NCBI GenBank assembly: GCA_003554945.1
Contig: PWHN01000035.1
Coordinates: 1 to 27,181 of the forward strand
Reading direction: 5' to 3'
From: a bacterium
Lineage (GTDB): Bacteria; T1Sed10-126
Length of the DNA: 27,181 bases
Shown: piece after piece, positions 4,509-26,478 of the stretch
Numbering within the stretch: the stretch's first letter is position 1
How the letters are laid out: every line of letters starts with the position of its first letter
The notes under the pieces: generated by a model
Database searches by the model: none
What the model saw: only the letters and a program-made list of their open reading frames with translations
What the model was told of the DNA's origin: nothing
Translations under genes and position numbers: made by a program

Positions 4509-5681
4509 AGCCGTAACTTCGGGGAGAAAGCTCCGACCCTCCAGCCGCTTGTTTAGACCAAAATAATCAAGAATAGTCTGTCCCACGTCGTAAAATCCTA
4601 TCCGTATTCCAAGATCTTTTCCGCTCTCCAGCCCCGGTCCATAAACCAGCAGCGGAACGAGCTCACGGCTGTGGTCGGTCCCTTCGGTTGTCGGGTCATT
4701 ACCATGATCGGCGGTAATTATTAACATGTCGTCATCTTTGAGAGAATCCAATATATTCCCCAGCCCCTGGTCCCACTCTTCCAGAACGCGTGCATAACCC
4801 AGAGAGTCGTTACGGTGGCCGAAATGCATATCAAAATCAACCAGATTTGCAAAAATTAGTCCTTCTTTATCCTGTGATTCAACAAGATTTAGAATCTTTT
4901 CGATTCCGTCGGCGTTGCTGGTAGTTTTTATTGAATCAGTAACCCCCCGATCAGCAAAAATATCGCTTATCTTACCGACGGCCGTCACACTGTAACCGAC
5001 CTTCTTCAGATCATCCATTACCGTGGGTTCGATCGGTTCCAAGGAGAAGTCTTTGCGCCGGTGTGTACGCTCAAAGTTACCGGGTTTTCCGACAAAAGGC
5101 CGGGCAATAACCCGCCCAACGTTGTGTTCACCAGTAAGAATTTCACGCGCCAGCTTACACATTCGATACAGCTCTACAACCGGTATTAGTTCCTCGTGGG
5201 CGGCGATCTGAAAGACGCTGTCACCGCTCGTATAAACTATAGGCGAGCCCGTTCGCAGGTGCTCTTCTCCCAATTCTTCAATAATTTTTGTTCCCGATTC
5301 AGCTTTATTACCGAGTATAGGACGGCCAATAGCACGCTCAAAAGGTTCTATAACTTCCGGGGGAAAACCTTCCGGGTAAGGGGGAAAAGGTTCGGAAACT
5401 TTTACTCCCATAAGCTCCCAGTGACCGACCGTAGTGTCCATAGCGCCAGAGATTTCAGACATCGCGCCGTAATTACCAATCGGCTGAGGATGAGGATCAA
5501 CGCCCAGCAATGGATATATCTGGCCCAGTCCGAGCCGTTCCATGTTAGGCAAACTAACGCCGGCGACACGCGCTGCAGTATTGAAAAGGGTATTACTATC
5601 TGCAGAGTTAAAACTGCGCGCATCAGGAGCGGCGCCAATTCCAACGCTATCAATAACCACCAGTATAACTCGTTTAGTCAT
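4497..5681 (-). CDS. deoB: Phosphopentomutase
   Basis: The product is 394 aa, the usual length for DeoB. It interconverts (deoxy)ribose 1-phosphate and 5-phosphate in nucleoside salvage in the cytoplasm. The alkaline-phosphatase-like metal ligands are in place: VIDSVGIG with D near residue 10, SGDSVFQIAAHEE in the middle, VDFDMHFGHRND, and ITADHGNDPTTEGTDHSRE near the C-terminus. It is the last gene of a three-gene operon: its ATG lies inside the end of the CBS gene with 8 nt overlap, so translational coupling is likely. No partner salvage gene (deoA, pnp, deoC) lies in the window. Confidence 0.97.
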   Translation of the reverse strand: MTKRVILVVIDSVGIGAAPDARSFNSADSNTLFNTAARVAGVSLPNMERLGLGQIYPLLGVDPHPQPIGNYGAMSEISGAMDTTVGHWELMGVKVSEPFPPYPEGFPPEVIEPFERAIGRPILGNKAESGTKIIEELGEEHLRTGSPIVYTSGDSVFQIAAHEELIPVVELYRMCKLAREILTGEHNVGRVIARPFVGKPGNFERTHRRKDFSLEPIEPTVMDDLKKVGYSVTAVGKISDIFADRGVTDSIKTTSNADGIEKILNLVESQDKEGLIFANLVDFDMHFGHRNDSLGYARVLEEWDQGLGNILDSLKDDDMLIITADHGNDPTTEGTDHSRELVPLLVYGPGLESGKDLGIRIGFYDVGQTILDYFGLNKRLEGRSFLPEVTASGG

Positions 5682-6126
5682 AATTACGCTCCCACTCTAT
5701 GTTAATTCCAAGCAGTTCATCAAGATTTTCAGAGAAAAACTTAAGTAAATCTCGCTGCGCAACTATTCCTGCTACAGTCCCGTCCTCGTTGGTGACGGGG
5801 ATCTGATTGTTTCCGGTTTCAACAAATTTCTCGCAAGCTTCGCGCAAACTGGTTCCCGGACTGAAAGTGTTAACATTTTGGGTCATCAGGTCACTGACGT
5901 TAATATAATACTCAGCGTGTTTAGGCAGAATATTGCGGGTCCGATAGCGAACTATGTCGCGTTCACTAACAATACCCACCAGCTTTTCATCCTCATCAAG
6001 AACCAGCAGTGCCCGCAGATTTCTATCCAGTATCAGGTCGTAAGCCTTTTCAATCGTATCCCAGGGAAAGACAGAGACAGCGTCAGCATTCATAAAATCG
6101 CTGACAGTAGGTTGTGTTTCTTCCAT
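5674..6126 (-). CDS. CBS-pair protein
   Basis: The product is 150 aa, consisting of two CBS domains (about residues 10-65 and 78-140) with little else. The first has DAVSVFPWDTIEKAYDLILD and GIVSERDIVR; the second has SDLMTQNVNTFSPGTSLREAC and GIVAQRDLLK. Tandem CBS domains usually bind adenine nucleotides or S-adenosyl ligands and act as sensors. Its ATG starts one base after the stop of the HEAT gene, and its 3' end overlaps deoB, so it is co-expressed with both. A ligand linked to nucleoside metabolism is an inference from this position. Confidence 0.92.
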   Translation of the reverse strand: MEETQPTVSDFMNADAVSVFPWDTIEKAYDLILDRNLRALLVLDEDEKLVGIVSERDIVRYRTRNILPKHAEYYINVSDLMTQNVNTFSPGTSLREACEKFVETGNNQIPVTNEDGTVAGIVAQRDLLKFFSENLDELLGINIEWERNYD

Positions 6127-6127
6127 G

Positions 6128-7831
6128 TTAACTCACCCGAATCTTATTTGAGATTTCCCGTAAATAGGAATTTTCTTCTGCTAATTCTTCCAGGTGGAGC
6201 GGATTGGTTGATTTTAAGGCGGCAGCGGCAAAATATTGTATTGTCCGATCGGCAGCCTCCTGCAGCACATCGGCGGCCACCCGTTCAAACATCGAGGCGG
6301 GATTGAGATAAAAACCACGGAGATAGGCGATTAAAACCCGTGGTCTGATTTCTTCCCGAGCCAGTTGAGCAGCAAGCTTGCGTGCTTTAGTGCTTTCCAG
6401 TTTAGTCAGTTCCAGAGCTGCATAGGCAGCTACCGCCGGACTGTCATCACGACAGAGACGGCGCAGAAGGTGCAAACAATCGGGACATTCCTGGCCGGCG
6501 CAGACGCCGGCAATGTAATAACGGAGTTTTACATTATCAGCTTTAAGATAGCGGGAGAGATAAGAGCAGAGAGCTGCATTACCCAGCCCGGCCAGGGCTC
6601 GGATGATGTTGATCTTAAGCTCAGTGTTAGCCTCGGGTAAAATATCCAGCAAAGCACGTCGGGCGGCTGTATCCCGCACCGCTACCTTATGCAGGGCCTC
6701 AATGGCAAAGTGTTCAATTTCTTTATCAGTGGTGTAAGCTTTGTCAATCAGGTCGGGAATAACTTCAACGTCACCGATTTCGCCAAGAACATAGAGCGCT
6801 TCCTGAACTCCCTCGCGCTCTTCAGCTTCAAGCGCCCGTCTGTAAGGCTTAAGAACCACGTCCCCCTGCTCAACCAGTTTGTTGGAAGCAAAACCCCGAA
6901 CATCGGAATCCTCGTCGCCCAGCCGGTCGAGTAAAATTTCAATAGATTCACGATGATTGATTTGCACCAGAGCGGCGATCGAATAATACCTGACGCGGGA
7001 GTCCGGGCTACTGCAGGCAAGCTCTTCCAGTTGTTCCCAGCATTTATCTGAACCTATCTTCCCCAGCGCTTCGGCGGCGTAATACTGATGAATGGGATCT
7101 TCCGAGTTAAGGTAGGGTTCAACCAGGTTGTAAGCTTTTTCGCTTCCCAGCTCACCAAGGGCTTCAATAGCAAAAACATCAAAGTCTTCGTCGTCCAGCA
7201 GCCGTTCAAGCACCGGTATGGCTTCTGGAAGAGGTCGCTCTTTTATTATCAGGATCAAATAATACTTTAAGGAATCGGTAAGTTTTTCTTCCTTATAGAC
7301 CTGCTCCAGTTGCCCGGCCAGCCACTCATCGTCAATTTCTTCTATATGGCTGAGCGCCCGGGCAACGTGAAATTTAATCCTGTCCTCTTCATGGGCTAGA
7401 AAATCAACCAGCAGTTCTTCCGCACCGGCAACATTAAAAAACTCAAGAATATTGATCCCCACGGAAAGTAAAAGCTTATTTTCTGTAGAGCGGAGAGCTT
7501 CAATGATGATCTCAGTTGTTTCCTCATGAGCTACCATCCCCAACCCGATCAAGGCCAGGATTCGCTCCTGATCCGTCGCCGAATTGGTAACTATTGATTC
7601 AAAAAACTCCCTTAGTTCCGGGTTTTCTCGCCTTGAAAGTTCAAGTAACGCTTTAATTTTAGTTTCAAAGTCTTCAGCGGATTGGTATTCTTCGATAAGT
7701 TTCTCGTTGGAGAGTTTTTCGTATTGCTCGATGTCGGTAAGCCAGCGACCGGCGACCTGGTTGCGGTATAAACTCAGAAATTCTTTTGCAGACTCCGGTT
7801 CTAACTTTTGTTGTTCGTATTCAGTCATCAT
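6128..7831 (-). CDS. HEAT-repeat scaffold protein
   Basis: The product is 567 aa and is built almost entirely of ~30-residue alpha-helical HEAT-like units. Repeated signatures include LLDDEDFDVFAIEALGELGS, SEDPIHQYYAAEALGKIGS and LGDEDSDVRGFASNKL. No signal peptide, membrane segment or catalytic motif is seen. HEAT arrays act as protein-binding scaffolds, sometimes as lyases or phycobilin factors, but nothing supports that here. It is the first gene of the HEAT-CBS-deoB operon. Two ATG codons are adjacent at 7831 and 7828 with a weak ribosome site. The partner is unknown. Confidence 0.88.
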   Translation of the reverse strand: MMTEYEQQKLEPESAKEFLSLYRNQVAGRWLTDIEQYEKLSNEKLIEEYQSAEDFETKIKALLELSRRENPELREFFESIVTNSATDQERILALIGLGMVAHEETTEIIIEALRSTENKLLLSVGINILEFFNVAGAEELLVDFLAHEEDRIKFHVARALSHIEEIDDEWLAGQLEQVYKEEKLTDSLKYYLILIIKERPLPEAIPVLERLLDDEDFDVFAIEALGELGSEKAYNLVEPYLNSEDPIHQYYAAEALGKIGSDKCWEQLEELACSSPDSRVRYYSIAALVQINHRESIEILLDRLGDEDSDVRGFASNKLVEQGDVVLKPYRRALEAEEREGVQEALYVLGEIGDVEVIPDLIDKAYTTDKEIEHFAIEALHKVAVRDTAARRALLDILPEANTELKINIIRALAGLGNAALCSYLSRYLKADNVKLRYYIAGVCAGQECPDCLHLLRRLCRDDSPAVAAYAALELTKLESTKARKLAAQLAREEIRPRVLIAYLRGFYLNPASMFERVAADVLQEAADRTIQYFAAAALKSTNPLHLEELAEENSYLREISNKIRVS

Positions 7832-7937: not shown

Positions 7938-9296
7938 TTACCCAAGCTCATCCTGCAGGTCGTAGGAGTCTAAAAAACCGGTGTGAAAGTCGGCGGCCCG
8001 GAACTTGTCATTCCAGATTAACCATTTAAAAAGCGGCAAGGTGGTGCGAAAACCTGAAATAGTGGTCTCGTTAATTGAACGACTCAAACGATTCAGACAC
8101 CTGTCACGATCCTTGTGCCAGGTTATTAGCTTGGCGATCATGGAGTCGTAGTAAGGTGAAATCCAGGTGTCAGGTTCAAGATAGGAATCCACCCGGACTC
8201 CGGGACCGGAGGGAAAAACTAATTTTTCGACGGTCCCCTGCTGCGGGGTAAAACCGGCCGCGGGGTCTTCGGCACAGACACGTATTTCAACGGAATGTCC
8301 CTTGTAAGTTATATCTTCCTGGTTCATGGGGAGCTCGCCTTCGAGCGCCGTCCGGATCTGAGTGGCAATAAGATCCTCGCCGGTAATCATCTCAGTCACT
8401 GGATGTTCTACCTGAATACGGGTATTGACCTCAATCACGTAAGCATTACCTGAATCATCCATCACAAACTCCACGGTGCCGGCATTACCGTAGTCCAGCT
8501 TGCCCAACGCTTCAGTCACGGTTTCGGCAAGTTCAACGCGCTGCTCCTCGCTCATCGCCGGCGACGGTGCTTCTTCAAGCAACTTCTGGTGACGCCGCTG
8601 AATTGAGCATTCCCGTTCAAAAAAGTGTACCACTTCTCCCTTACCGTCACCCATAACCTGCAGTTCTATGTGTCGGGGATCGGGAATAAATTTTTCGATA
8701 TACATCCACTCGGAATCAAAGGCGGCTTCCGCTTCGGCTTGAACGCGCGGAAACTGTTCACGCAGCTCCTCCATGTCTTCAACTTTAGCTATTCCACGTC
8801 CTCCACCACCGGAAGCTGCTTTAACCATCAGTGGGAAACCGACTTCGTCAGCCACCTTCTCGGCCTCCGCAAGCTCCTTCAAGCGGCCGTCCGAGCCGGG
8901 AAGCACCGGTATACCGGCTTGCTTGAGCTGGCGCCGGGCCTCGGCTTTCTGTCCCATCAGCTCAATAGTTTCTGCGCGCGGACCAATGAAAATATAACCG
9001 GCCTCTTCGACAGCACGAGCAAACTCGGCGTTTTCCGAGAGCAGACCATAACCGGGGTGAACAGCATCAGCATCACAGAGGTCAGCGGCAGCTAAGACAG
9101 CATCAATATCAAGATAACTCTTACCCGCTTCGGCGGGTCCAATACAGACCTTGCTATCGGCGACGCGCGACGGCAACGTCTGAGCGTCGGCACGGGAACA
9201 GGCGACGATGGACTCGTGCCCCAGCTCCTGACAGGCTCGCACCACCCGCAGCGCTATTTCCCCGCGGTTAGCTATGAGAATCCGCTTACTCTTCAT
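7938..9296 (-). CDS. accC: Acetyl-CoA carboxylase biotin carboxylase subunit
   Basis: The product is 452 aa, the normal length. It carboxylates biotin on the carrier protein using ATP and bicarbonate, the first half-reaction of malonyl-CoA synthesis. Seen: N-terminal ILIANRGEIALRVVRAC, the ATP-grasp glycine loop KAASGGGGRGIA, HQKLLEEAPSP, and the catalytic EVNTRIQVEHPVTEMITG segment. The family most often has EMN; EVN here is a small change. Its ATG overlaps the end of accB by 11 nt. The neighbouring carrier lacks the biotin lysine (see accB), so this enzyme must use another carrier, or the complex works differently. Confidence 0.96.
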   Translation of the reverse strand: MKSKRILIANRGEIALRVVRACQELGHESIVACSRADAQTLPSRVADSKVCIGPAEAGKSYLDIDAVLAAADLCDADAVHPGYGLLSENAEFARAVEEAGYIFIGPRAETIELMGQKAEARRQLKQAGIPVLPGSDGRLKELAEAEKVADEVGFPLMVKAASGGGGRGIAKVEDMEELREQFPRVQAEAEAAFDSEWMYIEKFIPDPRHIELQVMGDGKGEVVHFFERECSIQRRHQKLLEEAPSPAMSEEQRVELAETVTEALGKLDYGNAGTVEFVMDDSGNAYVIEVNTRIQVEHPVTEMITGEDLIATQIRTALEGELPMNQEDITYKGHSVEIRVCAEDPAAGFTPQQGTVEKLVFPSGPGVRVDSYLEPDTWISPYYDSMIAKLITWHKDRDRCLNRLSRSINETTISGFRTTLPLFKWLIWNDKFRAADFHTGFLDSYDLQDELG

Positions 9297-9702
9297 CTTC
9301 GCCCACCTCCCCCGTCTCTATCCGAGCCAGTTTTTCTCCAAATTCAACCGGCTCCGCCGGCAGTAAATCAATTATTGAACCACTCAAGGGAGCGATAACT
9401 TCCACCGTGCGGCGGTGCTTGTGAATCAGAGCAACAACCTGACCTTCCTCTACGAAATCTCCTTCATTCACTCGCCACTCAATTTTGCCTACGGATGGGG
9501 AAAATATAACGCCTGGGATTTCTACGCCCCGACCTTCAAGCAAAGGGGGCGAACTCTCCGTCTCGGAGCGAACCAGCTTTAAACCGGTACTCGTCTCCGG
9601 GTCTTTATACTCGAATTCGGTTAACCCGTAGCGATTCATAAATTTCAAAGCTCTTGTTAAATCGGCTCTGATTTTTTCAGAAGCTTTCTCTTCAGAACGC
9701 AT
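9286..9702 (-). CDS. accB: AccB-like biotin/lipoyl-domain protein lacking the biotin lysine
   Basis: The product is 138 aa. Residues 8-47 match the N-terminal helix region of AccB (GLTEFEYKDPE), followed by a linker and a ~70-residue biotinyl-type beta-sandwich (SPSVGKIEWRVNEGDFVEEGQVVALI, then APLSGSIIDLLPAEPVEFGEKLARIE). In ordinary carriers the hairpin between these halves reads EAMKM, with Lys biotinylated. Here the aligned residues are H94-K95-H96-R97-R98, so Arg97 takes the lysine place and both flanking Met are lost. The only Lys nearby is two positions off. The ATG directly follows the efp stop (TAGATG), with AGGTGA as ribosome site. The frame is intact, so this is not simple decay. 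It may be a non-biotinylated scaffold, with a second true carrier elsewhere. Confidence 0.88.
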   Translation of the reverse strand: MRSEEKASEKIRADLTRALKFMNRYGLTEFEYKDPETSTGLKLVRSETESSPPLLEGRGVEIPGVIFSPSVGKIEWRVNEGDFVEEGQVVALIHKHRRTVEVIAPLSGSIIDLLPAEPVEFGEKLARIETGEVGEDEE

Positions 9703-10266
9703 CTAATCACCTGACTTTCCGGCGTATTCGCCGTTTTTGGTATCAACAATAATTTTTTCACCTTCGTTTACGAATAACGGAACTGAAACCTTGAGGCCGC
9801 TCTCTGTATGAGCTCCCTTCGTACCGCCCTGTGCGGTGTCTCCTTTTACACCGGGGACAGTGTCAGCAATAGTCACTTCCACCTTGGGCGGGAGTTTAAT
9901 TCCAATTGGCTGGCCGTCACAGTATTCTAACTCAAGTTCCATTTTTTCAACCAGAAATTTTTTCTTCTCGCCCAGCGTCTCCGGCTCAAGCTCAATCTGT
10001 TCGTAGGTCTCCATGTCCATGAAAACGTAGAACTGATCGCTGGAATACAAATACTGGGCGGGCCTCTTCTCCATCATCGCCTGTTTATAGTTGTCATCCG
10101 GCGACAGTGTTTTTCTCTGAACTTTACCCGTCTTTAAGTTGCGCAGTTTTGTTCTCACGAACGCACCCCCACGCGCTTTGCGAGAGTGTTCATAATCAAG
10201 AACCTGGTGCAGCTCATCATCCAGGTATATTACCATACCGGTGTCAAATTGTTTCGGCGTAACCAT
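9703..10266 (-). CDS. efp: Elongation factor P
   Basis: The product is 187 aa from the ATG at 10266, the typical length; GTG at 10275 is also in frame, but GGGTGA lies 5 nt from the ATG. All three domains are present: KOW-like N-domain (TPKQFDTGMVIYLDD), OB domain 2, and the C-terminal GLKVSVPLFVNEGEKIIVDTKNGEYAGK signature. EF-P relieves ribosome stalling at polyproline. The loop that reaches the P-site tRNA reads KARGGAFVR, so the tip residue is Arg32 where E. coli and B. subtilis have the modified Lys. First of efp-accB-accC. Confidence 0.96.
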   Translation of the reverse strand: MVTPKQFDTGMVIYLDDELHQVLDYEHSRKARGGAFVRTKLRNLKTGKVQRKTLSPDDNYKQAMMEKRPAQYLYSSDQFYVFMDMETYEQIELEPETLGEKKKFLVEKMELELEYCDGQPIGIKLPPKVEVTIADTVPGVKGDTAQGGTKGAHTESGLKVSVPLFVNEGEKIIVDTKNGEYAGKSGD

Positions 10267-10467
10267 ATTACTCACCCGAGTTTATAAAAATATTTCTGCT
10301 TAAAAGATCAGACTGTGATAAATGTAATTTTTTTGGCTCCGTTGAAATCCCTGCTACTGTTACTTCTTACGCTCTAACTTGAGTGCTCGGAAGAATGAGT
10401 CCCAACAGCTTTGAGTAGCCCGTCTTCAGCAAGGATTTCAATATAGCTATTTTTTTCTGTTTGTAAA

Positions 10468-10500: not shown

Positions 10501-11574
10501 TTAGCCGCCGTCGTCAAGGATTTGAGCTCCTTCTTCTGTAACATGGAGGACGTGCTCAATTCTTCCGCCGCCAACGCCGGGCACGTATATGCCGGGTTCT
10601 ACCGTGACAACCATTCCCTCCTTCAGGCGAGCGTCAACGTGTCTGGAAAGCGAGGGTGATTCGTGAATTTCAAGCCCAAGACCGTGACCGACCCCGTGAA
10701 GAATATTCTCCTGCGAAAATCCAGCCTCCTCGATCAGCTTATCAGAAAAGTTAGCTAACTTTTTGACCTCACAGCCCGGACGAATTCTCTCACAAATTTT
10801 ACGAGCAACTGCCGAAGAAAGCTCGTATAACTCCTGAACCTCCTGATTTTCGCCGCGAAAAAACATGCGCGTCAAATCGGTACAGTATCCATTTAGCCGC
10901 AGCCCCAGGTCCAGCAGAACCGCGTCTCCATCTGTTAGTTTTCTTTCTGAAGGTGGAGCGTGCGGTGCAGCAGTTCGCTCGCCAAACAAGACAAGCGGAT
11001 AAAAAGCTCTCTCCTCGCCTCGACTTTCAAGCTCGGCCCGCAACTGCCGGTTTAACTGCTTCTCACTTATCCCCTCCTCCAGCCAATTTTCGGCCTGTTC
11101 AAACAGCTCAAGCACTTGATCGGTTGCCTCAGTGATCTGGGCAACCTCGGCTGCCGTCTTCAGCTGGCGCTGTTCGCTTATCCAATCGTCACCATAAACT
11201 CGAACCTCAACCGGAAGCTCTTTTTTTAAAAACAAAAATTCGGCATAGTTCAAGTGCGAACGCTCAAGATGGAGATCTGCAATATTTTGAGCGGCTGCAA
11301 AGTTACAGAGCGCCTTCAACTTCTTCTCACCCTGAGCTACTTTAACCACTTCGAGTTCAGCAGCCGTGAGACTCTCCTGCGAAGAAGCCGGATAACGAGC
11401 ATCGAGGAAGAGATAACTCTTTGACCGGGTGATAAGAAGCAAACCGGTAGTACCTCGAAAACCGGTAAGGTAACGTATGTTTACCAGCCGGGTAGTTAAA
11501 TAACCGCTGCGCCCAAACTTTGATAGGCGCTGATAAAATTTTTGCCGGCGAGCAGCGTAATCAAGCGCGCAGAT
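10501..11574 (-). CDS. M24-family Xaa-Pro peptidase (start codon unclear)
   Basis: This is a metallopeptidase that removes residues before proline. The five M24 metal ligands are visible: LLDLGLRLNGYCTD (two Asp), GVGHGLGLEIHES (His), VTVEPGIY (Glu), GGRIEHV (Glu). The first ordinary start codon is TTG at 11442, but the frame stays open back to 11580. The upstream translation (ARRQKFYQRLSKFGRS, LVNIRYLTGFRGTTG) is the expected N-terminus of this family, so the gene starts well before 11442. No ATG, GTG or TTG exists there. ATC at 11574-11572, with GGCGG 9 nt upstream, is the most plausible rare start and is used here. The frame overlaps aroQ by 14 nt. It matches the yqhT/pepQ position between aroQ and efp. 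The function is secure; the start is not. Confidence 0.85.
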   Translation of the reverse strand: MCALDYAARRQKFYQRLSKFGRSGYLTTRLVNIRYLTGFRGTTGLLLITRSKSYLFLDARYPASSQESLTAAELEVVKVAQGEKKLKALCNFAAAQNIADLHLERSHLNYAEFLFLKKELPVEVRVYGDDWISEQRQLKTAAEVAQITEATDQVLELFEQAENWLEEGISEKQLNRQLRAELESRGEERAFYPLVLFGERTAAPHAPPSERKLTDGDAVLLDLGLRLNGYCTDLTRMFFRGENQEVQELYELSSAVARKICERIRPGCEVKKLANFSDKLIEEAGFSQENILHGVGHGLGLEIHESPSLSRHVDARLKEGMVVTVEPGIYVPGVGGGRIEHVLHVTEEGAQILDDGG

Positions 11575-15893: not shown

Positions 15894-17078
15894 TTAATCG
15901 TCAGCCAGGCTGTCAAAGTATCCCTGTATGTGAATGAGTGGTGTTCCCCGGTCACCGCTGCCACTAGCCAGATCACAGAGGCTACCCAGCAGATCGGTAA
16001 GCTGACGGGGCGTCGTCCCCTGGGCGACTTCACGACCGACCAGATCGTCATCCTTGACCTCTATCTCGCGGCGCATCAACTCCAGTAGCTCCTCTCCCTC
16101 CAGATCGGCGTATTGATTGTCAGCAAGATATTTAATCTTAATTTCGTCCGGGGTCCCCTTCAACCCCGATGTATACCCGGGAGAAACGACCGGGTCAGCC
16201 AGCTCCCAGATACCGCCAACAGGGTCCTTGAAAGCACCGTCGGCAAAAATCATAACTTCCGGAGCTACTCCAAATTTATCAGCGACAGCATCCTGCAGTT
16301 TTTTAACAAAAACGTTTCCGTCACGCGGAAAAAGCTTTAACACATCTTCCCTGGACTTATTTGAGCCAAGTAATCCATACTCCGGGTTGTATCCTTTTAC
16401 TCCCGGACGCTTCTCGGCACAGAGGTCGTCCAACCCGCAAATTCGGCCGCCACCGTTATCTTTAAGCAACCGTTTTGTTTGTTCACGCGTGTGTATGTCA
16501 GCGGCTATAACGTCCTTAGTATAATCGAGAATTGTTGTCGGATTGTTAGAAAAAATAAACTCGATTTCAGTATCGCCCGCCATCTCCCGGTATAGATCAA
16601 CATAATTAAGTCCGGTAAACGGATGTTTAAAATCAGCAAATTTTTCCCGGTAGTCATCTTCGGTCAAAACGTCCTCCCAGGGATTAAGCCCAAGCTCGTG
16701 CATTTTGTCCTCATCCAACAGCGGATTACCAACTTCATCGTCCGGATATTTTAGCTGCATATATATTTTACGACCGGCACGCGCTATACCCTTGAGGATC
16801 AAAGAGAAACGGTTCCTGCTGAGAATTGGAAAAACTACACCTAATTCCTCCGGGAATTTTTCACGAACTTCCTCTGCCACCTGATCTATATGAACATAGT
16901 TGCCCCGGGCTCGAGCGACGAGAGATTCTGTTACTGCGAGAACATCTTTCTCGCACAGTTCAAAATTGTCTTCCTCCAACGACTTTTCCAGCGTAGATAC
17001 AATGATCTGAACCAGATCATCGCCTTCTTTTATAATTGGCGTCCTAAGACCTCTTACGTGCGTGCCAACGGTTCGCAT
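15894..17078 (-). CDS. CofE-like (F420-0:gamma-glutamyl ligase family) protein
   Basis: The product is 394 aa. The N-terminal region (GLRTPIIKEGDDLVQIIVSTL, then KDVLAVTESLVARARGNYV) matches the COG1478/CofE family that adds glutamate to a phospholactyl-deazaflavin precursor. The middle has NPTTILDYTKDVIAADIHTREQTKR and a glycine-rich patch, and the C-terminal part has MIFADGAFKDPVGGIWELADPV. F420 proper is mostly archaeal and actinobacterial; bacterial homologues like this, about 390 aa, lack a proven substrate. No cofC, cofD or fbi gene is visible, so the true substrate may be another acid. The ATG at 17078 lies 12 nt after the small upstream gene. Likely one operon. Confidence 0.82.
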   Translation of the reverse strand: MRTVGTHVRGLRTPIIKEGDDLVQIIVSTLEKSLEEDNFELCEKDVLAVTESLVARARGNYVHIDQVAEEVREKFPEELGVVFPILSRNRFSLILKGIARAGRKIYMQLKYPDDEVGNPLLDEDKMHELGLNPWEDVLTEDDYREKFADFKHPFTGLNYVDLYREMAGDTEIEFIFSNNPTTILDYTKDVIAADIHTREQTKRLLKDNGGGRICGLDDLCAEKRPGVKGYNPEYGLLGSNKSREDVLKLFPRDGNVFVKKLQDAVADKFGVAPEVMIFADGAFKDPVGGIWELADPVVSPGYTSGLKGTPDEIKIKYLADNQYADLEGEELLELMRREIEVKDDDLVGREVAQGTTPRQLTDLLGSLCDLASGSGDRGTPLIHIQGYFDSLADD

Positions 17079-19456: not shown

Positions 19457-19484
19457 TTGACCTTTGCTGAATAACATCTATAAT
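19457..19484 (+). promoter_or_regulatory. Sigma-70 promoter for the DUF4914 gene
   Basis: TTGACC (19457-19462), a 16-nt spacer, TATAAT (19479-19484). The predicted start near 19491 leaves a 39-nt leader. It lies inside a longer open frame and rules out the earlier in-frame start at 19464. Confidence 0.75.
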
Positions 19485-19529
19485 ACTTTGGGTTTTAACG
19501 TGCCACTAATTTTTTTGGAGGTAATCTTT

Positions 19530-21425
19530 ATGCAATTAACTGAGTCTGATTTAGAACAAAAATTCAACCTGGAACCAGAGATAGATAAAACGTTTCGCCA
19601 GTCTCCCGGAGTCGGAATCGCTCAAAACGAGAAAGATCTTCACAAGAGCTGTCTACCTGACGAAGAAGACGGATGGTTTGAGGTGAAATACGAAGTTGAG
19701 GGTGAACAAATAACAGAAGCCCGCGTCTGTCGAGTCAAAAATGGTATAGCGGCCAACTATCCCAAACCATACATGCGACGCCGCGACCCTGACTGCATGT
19801 TTATCGGCGACGATCTGCCAACTGATAAAGATCGCTACGAGGAAGCCTGGGGAGAGGACTTCTCGGCTGTTCGAACAGAGACGTTCGATTGGTTGAGCAA
19901 GCAAGAGCTGCTCACCTTTCCTTTCATGGCCGGCGACGATCGCTGTGGCATACCCGCCCTGGCTGTAGTCCCCGCCAATGCCGGTTTTTTTGCTCTCGGT
20001 CTTGGATTGCTTCAGGGGATTTCCGACTTCCAGGAGTTTGAGGAGCCTTTTGAACCACAGGTCTACATTTACGCCGCTCCACCTTTCAGACACACTCATT
20101 TTGACGGCCAGCAGGTGGTTGTCCACAACCGCAGCCATGAGCGACACGAGATTTTTAGTTATAACCTCTATCCGGGTCCCAGCGCAAAGAAAGGTGTTTA
20201 CGGAGCTCTGCTCCATTTCGGAGAAGTTGACAACTGGGTAACTACCCACGCTTCTGTTGTCCGCACACGCACCCCCTATAACAATAAAACTAACATCATG
20301 CACGAAGGTGCCAGTGGTGGTGGGAAAAGCGAGATGAACGAACATCTGCACCGTGATGTTGACGGTTCAATTAAAATGGGTGAAAACATTGTTACCGGCG
20401 AGGATCACTACCTGGTCCTCCCCCGGACAAACAAGCTTATGCCCATGGCCGACGACATGGTTCTCTGTCACCCTGATATTCAGAAAGATAACGGAAAAAT
20501 TGGTGTGCTTGATGCCGAGGACGGCTGGTTCATTCGCGTCGACCACATCGACAGCTACGGCACCGACCCGGACATCGAGGCGCGCACAATCGATCCGGAG
20601 CTCCCCCTGTTATTTTTTAACCTGGATGTTCAACCGGACAGCACCGCTCTGCTCTGGGAACATATTGAAGATGAGCCGGGTGTCCCCTGTCCTAATCCCC
20701 GTTTTGTCCTCCCCCGGCAAACAGTTCCACGTATACAAAACGATCCGCTATACATTGACGTCAGAAGTTTTGGCGTTCGTACTCCCCCATGTACTAAAGA
20801 TGAACCAAGCTACGGCATTCTTGGCATGTTTCACGTCCTCCCACCGGCCCTCGCCTGGATCTGGCGACTGATTTCTCCGCGCGGCTTTGCTAACCCCAGT
20901 ATTGTCGATACCGAGGGAATAAGTGCTGAAGGGGTCGGCTCTTACTGGCCCTTTGCTACCGGCAAACGTGTTACACAGGCTAATTTACTTCTCGATCAGT
21001 TTAAAAATACCCCCAACGTTTTAAACGTCCTCTGCCCTGTCAAACACGTCGGCGCCTGGAGTGTCGGTTTTATGTCGGAGTGGATTATGCGTGAATACAT
21101 CCCCCGGCGCGGCGGCCAGTTTGAGCGGGAGGAACTGACCGAGGCCCGCTGCAACATGCTCGGTTACGCGCTGGAGGAGTTAGTTGTGGAAGGAATTGAA
21201 ATTGACCGGGAGCTACTCAGCGTTGAGAAACAGCCCGAGGTTGGAACCGCTGCTTACGACGAGGGCGCACAGGTGCTGCGGGACTTTTTCAACGAGCAAC
21301 TGCAGAAATTTCTCACCGACGATCTCGATCCCGTCGGACGTAATATTATCGAATGTTTCCTCGATAACGGCACGGTCAGCGACTACGAAGACATTATCCC
21401 GGCGCCCAATATCTTCAGCGACTGA
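19530..21425 (+). CDS. DUF4914 protein, PEP carboxykinase-like
   Basis: The product is 631 aa from ATG 19530, with GGAGGT 7 nt upstream. I place it in DUF4914 from the N-terminal and central pattern. Its core follows the ATP-PEPCK layout in order. AKKGVYGALLHF corresponds to the PEPCK KKG segment, TTHASV to MHCSAN, and HEGASGGGKSEM (P-loop, K266) to GLSGTGKTTL. PMADDMV and LDAEDGWFIRVDH correspond to the GDDEH and NFEGGCYAK region, and MFHVLPPALAW to FGVLPPV. So a nucleotide- and metal-binding kinase-like fold is likely. PEPCK itself is usually 520-550 aa, so the real substrate may differ. Single gene under its own strong promoter; the last 11 nt overlap the convergent SHOCT gene. Confidence 0.85.
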   Translation: MQLTESDLEQKFNLEPEIDKTFRQSPGVGIAQNEKDLHKSCLPDEEDGWFEVKYEVEGEQITEARVCRVKNGIAANYPKPYMRRRDPDCMFIGDDLPTDKDRYEEAWGEDFSAVRTETFDWLSKQELLTFPFMAGDDRCGIPALAVVPANAGFFALGLGLLQGISDFQEFEEPFEPQVYIYAAPPFRHTHFDGQQVVVHNRSHERHEIFSYNLYPGPSAKKGVYGALLHFGEVDNWVTTHASVVRTRTPYNNKTNIMHEGASGGGKSEMNEHLHRDVDGSIKMGENIVTGEDHYLVLPRTNKLMPMADDMVLCHPDIQKDNGKIGVLDAEDGWFIRVDHIDSYGTDPDIEARTIDPELPLLFFNLDVQPDSTALLWEHIEDEPGVPCPNPRFVLPRQTVPRIQNDPLYIDVRSFGVRTPPCTKDEPSYGILGMFHVLPPALAWIWRLISPRGFANPSIVDTEGISAEGVGSYWPFATGKRVTQANLLLDQFKNTPNVLNVLCPVKHVGAWSVGFMSEWIMREYIPRRGGQFEREELTEARCNMLGYALEELVVEGIEIDRELLSVEKQPEVGTAAYDEGAQVLRDFFNEQLQKFLTDDLDPVGRNIIECFLDNGTVSDYEDIIPAPNIFSD

Positions 21426-22289: not shown

Positions 22290-22982
22290 TTAAAAGACGT
22301 AGAACACGAAAGCAAGTCCCAGCAAGATTAGAAAAAGCCCAATAACGAGACGTTGTTGTCGCTTGTATTTTTGTTGCAGCTCACCGAAAGCAGCAAGCGT
22401 AACCGGATTTAACGAGAGAGCAAGAATAACTATCAGGGGAGTGACAAAAGCCAAATTATATAGAACAAGGTACAACAATCCCCGGAAGTAGGTCGTGCGT
22501 GATGCCAGCAGGGCACTGATTGCTGCGTATACGCCGGCGGAACAGGGAATCGAACAGAGAGCAACCAAAAAAGCTGCCAGCACGACTGCGGGCACCGAAC
22601 TCCTCTGCAGCAGCTTTTTCGCCCGCTCAATACTCATTCCGGCGGGTGAAAAGCCAAGCTTAAACCCCGGGTAAAAATACTTACCAATGTTGTAAAAACC
22701 CATAAATATCAATGCGACAGCACCGATTTTTGCCAGTAAATGACCTTCAAAGAAGTGCAACCCGGAGAAAAAACCAACTCCCAGACCAAGATGGGTTAAA
22801 AATATTACCCCAATATACAGTGACCCAAGCAACAACACTCTACTTCTGCTTTCGCGCAAGGAGAGCAAAAAGGCGACAAAAAATACCAGTATGGCGATAG
22901 CACAGGGGTGAATACCGTCCAGCAAACCAGCAGAAAATATGGTGATTATACCCGAAACTCCACCGGTAAGATCAATTGACAT
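22290..22982 (-). CDS. CcdA/DsbD-type thiol transporter
   Basis: The product is 230 aa with six predicted membrane helices. The two Cys of the CcdA/DsbD core are present: GIHPCAIAILVFFVAFLL in the first helix and CSIPCSAGVYAAISALL in the fourth. These proteins carry electrons from cytoplasmic thioredoxin across the membrane to reduce outer thiols. The GIHPC variant without a second Pro is found in the smaller archaeal and anaerobe branch. It overlaps the DUF1573 gene by 11 nt, so the two are coupled. A role in keeping copper-binding thiols reduced is inferred. Confidence 0.88.
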   Translation of the reverse strand: MSIDLTGGVSGIITIFSAGLLDGIHPCAIAILVFFVAFLLSLRESRSRVLLLGSLYIGVIFLTHLGLGVGFFSGLHFFEGHLLAKIGAVALIFMGFYNIGKYFYPGFKLGFSPAGMSIERAKKLLQRSSVPAVVLAAFLVALCSIPCSAGVYAAISALLASRTTYFRGLLYLVLYNLAFVTPLIVILALSLNPVTLAAFGELQQKYKRQQRLVIGLFLILLGLAFVFYVF

Positions 22983-23427
22983 TGCCGCTCAACTCCACCG
23001 TCAGCAGGGGCTGACGGGGATCGTTATTTCCCACGAACACAAACCGTTCTTGAAAACCTGTCCCGGTCAAAGCCGGCATCTGATCAGTGTAATACACTAC
23101 ATCAAGCGTCGAGGTATCACCGGGCGCCAGCTTTTTACTTGAAAGCTCGGCAACGGCACAGGGACAGGAAGTTGATAGGTCACTAATTTGAAGATCCGCT
23201 TCGCCCCGGTTATAGAGAGTAAATTGAGTCCGAACTTCACTGCCGTATTCAACCTCGCCAAAATCGTACACTTCACTGGAAACTTCAATTTCCGGCAGCT
23301 CTCCGTCTTCCGGAGCTTCGGGCATCGCTGCATAAAACCCATAAGCCCCCAACATCACTAAAATAATTAAACCGGAACTGACCAGTAAAGTTTTAGAGGA
23401 TAGTAAAAAATCAGCCGGGGAACTCAT
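22972..23427 (-). CDS. DUF1573 protein with a CPC motif
   Basis: The product is 151 aa. One N-terminal membrane helix (residues 13-33, [16 protein letters not shown]) places the rest outside. The C-terminal ~100 residues are an Ig-like DUF1573 domain ([34 protein letters not shown]). Where most members have Ser-Cys-Gly-Cys, this has TSCPCAVA. A Cys-Pro-Cys motif is what P1B ATPases use for Cu(I), so metal binding is a possible role. It overlaps copA by 4 nt and the CcdA-like gene by 11 nt. Confidence 0.88.
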
Positions 23428-25946
23428 TCCAGTGAAACCCGGCGCAAGAGACTGGCGTTAGTAACTACGGTCAGCGAGCTGATAGTCATCGCAATCACAC
23501 CAATCAGGGGATGTAGCAGACCAAGGATCGCCACCGGAATAGCTACCGTGTTGTAGATGTAAGCCCAGAAAAGGTTCTGTTGAATTTTTCTGAATGTTGC
23601 CCGGGAAAGCCTGAAGGCACGAACAATAACGGTCAATGCCCCCCGGACCAGGGTAACGTCTGCCGATTCGATAGCAATATCCGTCCCGCTACCGATGGCT
23701 ACACCAACATCGGCCTGCGTTAAAGCTGGTGCGTCGTTGATCCCGTCTCCAACCATAGCAACACGCTTACCCGCAGCCTGAAGCTTCTTGATTTGCTCCG
23801 TCTTGTCTTCAGGCAGAACTTCGGCGATAACATTTTTAATCCCCACCTTCGCGGCGATAGCCTCAGCCGTGCGCTGATTGTCACCGGTCAACATGTAGGT
23901 CTCCAGGCCAAGCTGGTGAAACGCTTCTACTGCCGCTGGCGAGTCTTCTTTTATCTTATCAGCCACACCCAGCACACCAACGGTTTTACCACCTCTGGCA
24001 ACATACATAGCGGTCATCGCCTGTTCTTCCAGTTCATGAGCTTTTTCACGACAGGCGTCACTTATTTCCACTTCGTGCTCCTGCATCAGCTCCCGATTAC
24101 CTGCCAGGTATTTCTGACCGTCTACACGTCCTTCAACTCCTTTGCCTGTATGGGAAGTGAAATCTTCCGCATCCTTGAAATCTATTTCTCTCTCCTCAAG
24201 CCCGCTGACAATCGCTGCCGCCAGCGGATGTTCCGACTTGACTTCAATACCGCCAACCGCCGCCAGTAAATCCTGTTTCTCCTCGGTCTCCACAAACACT
24301 TCAATTAGACGAGGGGCTCCTTCAGTTATAGTACCGGTCTTATCTAAAACTACAGCGTCGAGATCTTTGATCACCTGTATCGCCTCACCGGAACGAATCA
24401 ATATTCCTTCCTCGGCACCCATGCCGGTGCCCACCATCAAAGCCGTCGGTGTGGCCAAGCCCAGGGCGCAGGGACAGGCAATCACTAACACGGTTATCGC
24501 CGCTATTAAGGCATAGATTACTTGTGTAGAAAAGGCCTGGGCAGCCAGGTTAGCCGGCACGTCGACCCAGGGCAGCCAGCCCTCTAACGCAACAGCAGCG
24601 GTGCTGAATAGGTTGGGCAGCAGCAGCCAGCCGAGGAAAGTCAAAAGCGATATAAGTAGCACGGCCGGAACAAAATAGGAGGTTACCTTGTCTGCAAAAG
24701 CCTGAATGGGTACCTTTGTCCCCTGCGCCTCCCTAACGAGGTCAACTACCTGCGAAAGAAAAGTATCCTCCCCTACCCGGGTGGCTTCCACTTTAAGGTG
24801 ACCCTGCTGATTAACGGTGGAGCCTATTACTTCGTCGCCAGACTGCTTGGTCACGGGCATGGATTCGCCGGTAGCCATCGACTCGTCCACACCGGACTCC
24901 CCTTCGACAACAACCCCGTCGGTGGGAATCTTTTCACCGGGTTTAATAACCATGAGGTCACCTTCGTTCACTTCCTCAATGGGAATCTCAACCTCACGGC
25001 CGTCGACTTCAACCCGGGCCGTCTTAGCTTCCATCTCCAGCAACTTCTGAATTGCCAGCGAAGCGCGACCGCGGGAACGGCTTTCTACGTATCGACCGAT
25101 AAGATGAAAGGCCATAATCATACCGCCGATACCGGCGTAGTTAAGTACAGGCAGACCGGTCAACGTAAGAATTCCGGTGGAGAAAGCGGCTAAAGAACCA
25201 ATCGCAATCAAGACATCCATGTTCGGACTGAGGTTACGACTGCTTTTCCAGGCCGAAACCAGAGTGTCCCATCCAGGGATCAGTATTATTAACGTCGCGG
25301 AAACCAGCATAACCCAGTCGTAGACGGGACGAGCAAAAATACTCTCGGCCAGCCAGTCGCTGAAAAATATGTTGGGAATCATCATCGCAAATATAGGAAG
25401 CATAAATAAACCGGCAAGGATCATGTCATTTCTAACCTGTCGGGCCTGGCTTTCCTCTTCAGTGCCCTGCTTGCTCTTTTCTCTACCAGATCGGGGGCGA
25501 GCTTCATAACCACTCTCTTTAACGGCGGCAATCAATTGCGCTGTCGTCACTTCCGGGCCCGCGACAACACGGGCCTGCTCGGCGGCAAAATTTACGTTAG
25601 CTTCGCTAACCCCCTCAAGCTCACTCAGTGCCGACTCGATCGAAGCGGCACAGGAGGCACAGCTCATACCGCTAATTTCCAGTTCTACTTCCCGCTCCCC
25701 CTGTCGCGAACTGTCTTCATCCTCAACAACCAATTCATACCCGGCGGAGCTCACCAGACCGGCAATGTCGTCAGTTTCAAGTTCACCCTGAGCATACTCC
25801 ACCGTCAAACGCTCGGCGGCAAAGTTCACGGACGCGGACTCTACTCCCGGGGCTGAACCAACAGTATCTTCAATTGTCTTGGCACAGGAGGCACAGTTCA
25901 TACCCTGCACCGGAAACTGTTTTTTTTCTATACTATTTTCGCTCAT
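23424..25946 (-). CDS. copA: Copper-exporting P1B-type ATPase
   Basis: The product is about 840 aa. Two N-terminal heavy-metal domains carry GMNCASC (C18, C21) and GMSCASC (C96, C99). The P-type core has TGES, the ion-site CPC (residues 491-493, VIACPCALG), the phosphorylation motif DKTGT (535-539), SEHPLAAAI, and [13 protein letters not shown] with two CxxC domains is the Cu(I) exporter class. Start: ATG at 25946 is preferred over GTG at 25958, which sits right against AGGAA. The stop overlaps the DUF1573 start by 4 nt. A REP-like repeat separates it from csoR, so it probably has its own promoter. Confidence 0.96.
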
Positions 25947-26040
25947 TGAAATAACCACTTCCTAACTTTCTCACGATGTCTTTTCCTACCATCTCGTTTA
26001 CATATGGCTGCTTATTATTAGATCAAAACCGTAAAAATGG

Positions 26041-26121
26041 ATTGCGGGTCAAGCCCGCAATGACGAGCGTTAGTTCAAGCTCGCTCTTGAATTTGATGTC
26101 ATTCCGGCCACTGAGCCGGAA
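26041..26121. repeat. Composite REP-like repeat (copy 2)
   Basis: Hairpin 1 is ATTGCGGG / CCCGCAAT (26041-26061, loop TCAAG). Hairpin 2 is TTCCGGC / GCCGGAA (26102-26121). Between them is TCTTGAATTTGA followed by TGTC. Same order as 346-445, and hairpin 1 with flanks is almost identical to 684-704. It sits between csoR and copA. Confidence 0.8.
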
Positions 26122-26125
26122 AACA

Positions 26126-26160
26126 CCAGCTTAAAGCTCAAAGCCAAAAGCTGAAAGCTA
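26126..26160. repeat. Short tandem AAAGCT-type repeat
   Basis: Four spaced near-repeats of AAAGCT or AAAGCC are seen just downstream of csoR and reach its stop codon. Low complexity; no regulatory meaning assigned. Confidence 0.5.
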
Positions 26161-26478
26161 TTTCAAAAATTTCTTCAGCGCCTCGATGAATTCCTCAACC
26201 TTTTCGCGTTCGTCGTAAGGGTCCTCAGAGCGCATGGCGTCACGAACACAGGTTTCCAGGTGCCGCTCCATAACTTTGGTTGCCAGCCCTTCAAGTGCCC
26301 GCGTGGCTGAACGAATCTGGTGGACCAGGTCAATACAATACCGTCCTTCCTCAATCATTCGCTCAATACCGCCAATCTGGCCTTTTATCCTCGCCACGCG
26401 ATTATGTAGAGCTTTCCGGTCCTGTGGCGAGTCAAACTCCTCGCTGTCTTCACTTGCTTCAAGACAAGTATCTGCCAT
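26158..26478 (-). CDS. csoR: CsoR-family copper-sensing repressor
   Basis: The product is 106 aa. It has the DUF156 all-helical fold (NRVARIKGQIGGIERMIEEGRYCIDLVHQIRSATRALEGLATKVMERHLETCV). The Cu(I) ligands C48, H73 and C77 (YCID and HLETC) are in place, the Cys-His-Cys set that tells CsoR from formaldehyde or sulfide sensors. It likely represses copA and is released by Cu(I). Start ATG at 26478 with AGGAGG 7 nt upstream. No clear GC-rich CsoR operator was seen, so the site is unassigned. Confidence 0.93.
   Translation of the reverse strand: MADTCLEASEDSEEFDSPQDRKALHNRVARIKGQIGGIERMIEEGRYCIDLVHQIRSATRALEGLATKVMERHLETCVRDAMRSEDPYDEREKVEEFIEALKKFLK

Follow-up and report, generated by a model that had tools for sequence, protein, structure and literature searches.

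A lysine-less AccB-like protein encoded beside accC and its putative structural role in biotin carboxylase

Biotin carboxylase, the product of accC, is required at the outset of fatty acid synthesis. The AccB-like protein encoded next to accC in the DNA analyzed here has, very likely, lost the lysine that carries biotin and is predicted not to be biotinylated. We propose that this protein, which we refer to as accB*, is a non-biotinylated, non-catalytic AccB paralogue that serves as a structural subunit assembling or tuning AccC. We give this reading a probability of roughly 0.58; the role is inferred, and we have no interaction data. The same arrangement recurs across several phyla, with a canonical AccB encoded elsewhere in nearly all cases checked. 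Throughout, the window denotes the whole stretch of DNA that was analyzed, 27,181 nucleotides of contig PWHN01000035.1.

The accB* gene and its product

Table 1. Features of the accB* locus and their positions in the window
Feature	Position	Strand	Basis
accB*, AccB-like protein without biotinyl lysine, adjoining accC	9286..9702	-	ORF, 138 aa; PF00364 match
accC, biotin carboxylase, 452 aa	7938..9296	-	ORF; NF006367 above cut-off
efp, elongation factor P, same operon as accB*	9703..10275	-	ORF and domain matches
pepQ-like M24 peptidase, upstream of efp, same strand	10501..11442	-	ORF and domain matches
HEAT-repeat protein downstream of accC	6128..7831	-	ORF and domain match; order kept in sister genome
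Two-CBS-domain protein downstream of accC	5674..6126	-	ORF and domain match; order kept in sister genome
Codons of hairpin H94-K95-H96-R97-R98-T99, where carriers have EAMKMM	9406..9423	-	E. coli AccB alignment
accB* N-terminal beta-hairpin region, residues 27-46 (LTEFEYKDPETSTGLKLVRS)	9565..9624	-	E. coli AccB N-terminus alignment

A reading of this locus made before our analysis, without database searches (here, the sequence-only reading), had claimed that an AccB-like carrier has Arg at the modified position and has lost both neighboring Met residues, in an intact frame and an intact operon with efp and accC. Both claims held. The ORF begins with ATG, is intact, and overlaps accC by 11 nt; the efp stop codon directly abuts its start, and the order pepQ-efp-accB*-accC is unbroken in the window (Table 1). 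The hairpin codons occur only once in the window. Alignment with E. coli AccB places Arg97 in the column of Lys122, and residues 94 to 98 read H-K-H-R-R where carriers read E-A-M-K-M, with the flanking Met residues absent as well. The further claim that the biotinyl domain aligns from start to end failed: the thumb, eight columns of the same alignment, is deleted in both the window protein and its sister protein described below, and the segment past the hairpin is 2 residues shorter than in E. coli AccB. The thumb contacts BirA, AccA, and AccC in AlphaFold models of E. coli (PMC10863985). The claim that this carrier should not be biotinylated is supported, as a prediction from the loss of the lysine.

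The protein meets the criterion for a biotinyl/lipoyl domain fold, as judged by its sequence only: PF00364 (Biotin_lipoyl) matches residues 72 to 128 at 29.2 bits (gathering score, 22.1). It falls far below the curated BCCP model TIGR00531, scoring 18 bits where the cut-off is 115.2, and its identity to BCCP is 26%. The criterion for a lipoyl domain, a Lys in a DKA-type hairpin, is unmet, accB* having Arg there; the residues after the turn (TVEV) resemble those of lipoyl domains. Structure prediction from the two available sequences gave a mean pLDDT of 42.7, which is too poor for use. In these comparisons the N-terminal region is still AccB-like, and precisely the lysine and thumb, which a carrier needs, are gone. 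By analogy with the hairpin of Chloroflexus BC1 (PMC11077971), residues 27 to 46 would be the element that contacts AccC and tetramerizes.

The sole other genome of this phylum in our comparison set, MAG CSSed10_354m (G001, contig PWOD01000165.1; here, the sister genome), shows these genes in the order of the window and encodes an accB* with Gln in the Lys column (EKHQSIVEV). The sequence-only reading would have been refuted by relatives that keep AMKM with only this copy changed, which is not the case. The two proteins are 61% identical, and the hairpin is their least conserved part (2 of 6 residues identical). Neighboring genes are 71 to 80% identical between the two genomes, so that accB* is the faster evolving. 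That pN (0.29) is well below pS (0.81) shows purifying selection on accB*, which has stayed in this operon in the sister genome; dS is saturated, and thus no dN/dS is given. A base error is excluded because the sister genome has Gln in the Lys column, and together with purifying selection this also rules out a pseudogene. The HEAT-repeat and two-CBS-domain genes (5674-7831, minus strand) trail accC in both genomes of the phylum, and their names suggest no link to a carboxylase.

AccC, BirA, and a canonical AccB in the same genome

The sequence-only reading had proposed a search for other BCCP genes, birA, and the carboxyltransferase in the genome of the window (G000, a MAG that is 93.5% complete). 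This search returned a canonical AccB, a BirA, and one carboxyltransferase. The only biotin carboxylase identified by PF02785 is the AccC of the window, which is intact: all 19 E. coli AccC positions compared, which we take to be catalytic or conserved residues, are identical. PF01039 likewise identifies a single carboxyltransferase, of the MmdA/PccB type. The canonical AccB has the motif EAMKLMNE, passes TIGR00531 at 124 bits, and is encoded on another contig (L006:10153-10590) just upstream of this lone carboxyltransferase; a decarboxylase-type carrier and an OadB-type sodium pump subunit follow downstream. The sister genome holds the same set, with its canonical AccB adjoining an MmdA-type carboxyltransferase, and additionally encodes a protein of pyruvate carboxylase size and another, divergent carboxyltransferase.

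Because no other biotin carboxylase was found in the genome, the AccC of the window very likely uses the separate, unlinked canonical AccB. This remains an inference from a genome that is not closed, in which a second accC may be missing. On the same ground, accB* and the canonical AccB are inferred to share one AccC in the manner of plant BADC proteins. The sequence-only reading had offered two alternatives, an AccC that uses a second carrier or a protein turned structural or regulatory; both hold together, the latter by inference.

Two carboxyltransferase loci deserve a separate remark. On contig C102 of the window genome, one run of genes (L006:5376-10590) holds the canonical accB, the MmdA-type carboxyltransferase, the decarboxylase-type carrier, the OadB-type pump, and an RnfC/PrdC-like protein, and it is possible that this carboxyltransferase serves a carboxylase and a sodium-pumping decarboxylase alike. 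The second carboxyltransferase-like protein of the sister genome (L039:790-2262, contig C31) is very divergent, and mainly its C-terminal half matches MmdA.

Lysine-less copies beside accC in other phyla

Although a profile built from the window and sister proteins found no close relative in 386 genomes, restriction of lysine-less copies to one lineage was rejected once the position beside accC was surveyed. We inspected the neighbors of accC at 130 AccC loci from about 120 to 150 genomes and found a biotinyl-like frame near accC in 93. The lysine is kept in 82 of these frames and absent from 10, two in this phylum and eight in others; the remaining frame is dubious. The eight copies (L095, L096, L112, L119, L138, L188, L191, and L209), found among about 90 AccC loci outside this phylum, immediately precede accC, whether in efp operons or in other settings, and the residue in their Lys column is Gly, Glu, Asp, or Ser. 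Seven of these eight genomes also have a canonical AccB at another locus; the eighth, the exception, is 81% complete. This extent across phyla goes beyond what the sequence-only reading had seen.

Two phyla, referred to here by the representative genomes G022 and G018, were read more broadly. The G022 phylum has Gly in the Lys column in every AccC-linked copy read (41/41, from many genera), while the second loci read are canonical EAMK in 20 of 20 cases, 19 of them away from accC. About a dozen smaller genomes of this phylum gave no match whatever. Its accC is followed by an Asp23-like gene, and from gene order alone we would guess that this phylum is possibly Fusobacteriota. The order accB-accC-yqhY is conserved in Fusobacteria, where a 2017 paper treats accB as an ordinary accB (PMC5437119). 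For the G018 phylum, 30 loci were read; 16 of them, in 12 families, have Gly, His, Asn, or Gln in place of the lysine, with accC downstream in 14, and all eight second loci read are canonical.

The window protein has no thumb and has diverged much further than the other lysine-less proteins. A tree of 100 AccB-like rows, with long branches and 62 of its 97 inner branches open, is compatible with either one or several origins of the lysine-less proteins. BCCP phylogeny was omitted from a 2011 study of carboxylase evolution on account of the shortness of the domain (PMC3199775). Our search of the open-access literature, which leaves out most subscription journals, found the plant BADC proteins and no description of a bacterial lysine-less AccB.

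Proposed role and rival readings

Plant BADC proteins are BCCP-like, lack the AMKL motif, and help BC and BCCP assemble, with inhibition reported by others (PMC11926652). The likeness to accB* is close: in Arabidopsis (BADC1-3), a motif-less BCCP-like protein coexists with a catalytic BCCP, with one biotin carboxylase for both, and its identity to BCCP is 25 to 30% (PMC11926652), compared to 26% for accB*. However, accB* is bacterial and lies in an accC operon, whereas BADC is encoded in the plant nucleus; binding to BC and BCCP has been demonstrated in plants and is only inferred for accB*; and the window protein has no thumb. No BADC chain is among the PDB matches that we examined. We thus suggest by analogy that accB* works like BADC and make no claim of common descent.

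Canonical AccB (TIGR00531; E. coli) shares with accB* an N-terminal helix and hairpin, a C-terminal domain of biotinyl fold, and a gene directly upstream of accC; accB* differs in lacking the biotinyl Lys, flanking Met residues, and thumb and in scoring far below the TIGR00531 cut-off. The BCCP domain of Chloroflexus aurantiacus BC1 (PDB 8HZ4) also has an N-terminal hairpin before its biotinyl core, but it is part of the BC polypeptide and carries biotin on K553. There, four such hairpins come together as a barrel, linking two BC dimers and increasing BC activity, an effect that does not depend on the core; deleting the hairpin breaks the tetramer and lowers activity, and deleting the core does not (PMC11077971). 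In AlphaFold models of E. coli, the N-terminal domain of AccB sits on AccC only (PMC10863985). Bacterial acyl-CoA carboxylases with a "glue" subunit are cited in PMC11926652, and the epsilon subunit (AccE) of actinobacterial acyl-CoA carboxylase resembles our proposal in being non-catalytic and in promoting assembly and activity. Unlike accB*, AccE is not known to be a biotinyl-fold protein.

In the model we propose, accB* would be translated together with AccC as a building block of biotin carboxylase. Its N-terminal helix and beta-hairpin would bind AccC dimers and keep them together as a tetramer, whether by themselves or as part of a mixed barrel to which canonical AccB also contributes. 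The lysine-less domain would fill the carrier position without carrying CO2, by which accB* may fix the stoichiometry and tune the activity of the carboxylase, while the unlinked canonical AccB would transfer CO2 to the MmdA/PccB-type carboxyltransferase. It is possible that the window protein, being divergent and thumbless, does not share the role of the other lysine-less proteins. A bolder reading is that several phyla use a dedicated lysine-less BCCP paralogue, encoded next to accC, as a non-catalytic subunit that acetyl-CoA carboxylase cannot do without, the true carrier being the unlinked AccB. It is also an inference, resting on at least one phylum that is lysine-less in every AccC-linked locus read, and we lean toward it only slightly.

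The main rival is that accB* is a competitive inhibitor, which would occupy the carrier sites of canonical AccB on AccC, lower the activity of acetyl-CoA carboxylase, and act as a brake on fatty acid synthesis. The anatomy would be the same, other authors have proposed an inhibitory model of plant BADC (as reported in PMC11926652), and co-expression through the 11-nt overlap would be expected to fix the ratio of such an inhibitor to AccC. Yet a protein that is always co-translated with AccC looks more like a building block than a brake, we saw no regulatory signal at the window locus, and the authors of PMC11926652 hold their own NMR data to be inconsistent with inhibition. We consider this rival unlikely. 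We give still less credence to a relic, according to which the ancestral accB, once replaced in function by a second accB, degenerated within its efp-accB-accC operon, its frame being kept mainly for translational coupling to accC. The faster evolution of accB* relative to its neighbors (61% versus 71 to 80% identity) and the loss of thumb and motif are as such a relic would have them, but pN is well below pS, the domain is conserved outside the hairpin, and Gly throughout the copies of the G022 phylum together with retention in another phylum speak against neutral decay.

That accB* remains a carrier modified at a shifted residue can be all but dismissed. The candidate is Lys95, two residues before the usual position, which is common to the window and sister proteins. 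However, the alignment, which has no gaps on either side of the hairpin, puts it in the column of the Ala of EAMKM; a Lys at the hairpin tip is missing from most other lysine-less AccC-linked proteins; and the Chloroflexus carrier domain was no longer biotinylated after the K553A change (PMC11077971). A departure from carboxylase biology altogether, for example toward EF-P or the HEAT and CBS proteins of the cluster, draws support from the conservation of these neighbors in both genomes of the phylum; elsewhere, however, the constant partner is accC while the upstream genes vary (efp, dnaE, and others), and we regard such a role as highly improbable.

If the bolder reading is true, a type of subunit described as unique to plants is either old and widespread in bacteria or has been invented there repeatedly. 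The accB-like gene of the accB-accC operon very likely does not encode the biotin carrier in these bacteria, and annotations, pathway models, and drug-target work on acetyl-CoA carboxylase may point at the wrong protein. Such operons would also offer simple bacterial systems for the dispute over assembly or inhibition by plant BADC proteins, and under the structural reading one would expect mixed BC-BCCP complexes amenable to purification.

Some genes away from the accB* operon are recorded here as minor observations. By eye, a large protein of the window (19464-21425, plus strand) with a P-loop-like GASGGGKSE motif resembles DUF4914/PEP carboxykinase-related proteins, and another (15894-17078, minus strand) resembles F420 gamma-glutamyl ligases of the CofE type. 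Also judged by eye, the genes at 22290-26478 (minus strand) appear to form one cluster, which encodes a copper-type P-type ATPase that has two metal-binding domains, along with small proteins of membrane and periplasm type and a repressor resembling CsoR. On contig C103 of the same genome (L008:4774-5739), a transposase-like gene interrupts the glycine cleavage cluster between gcvT and gcvH.
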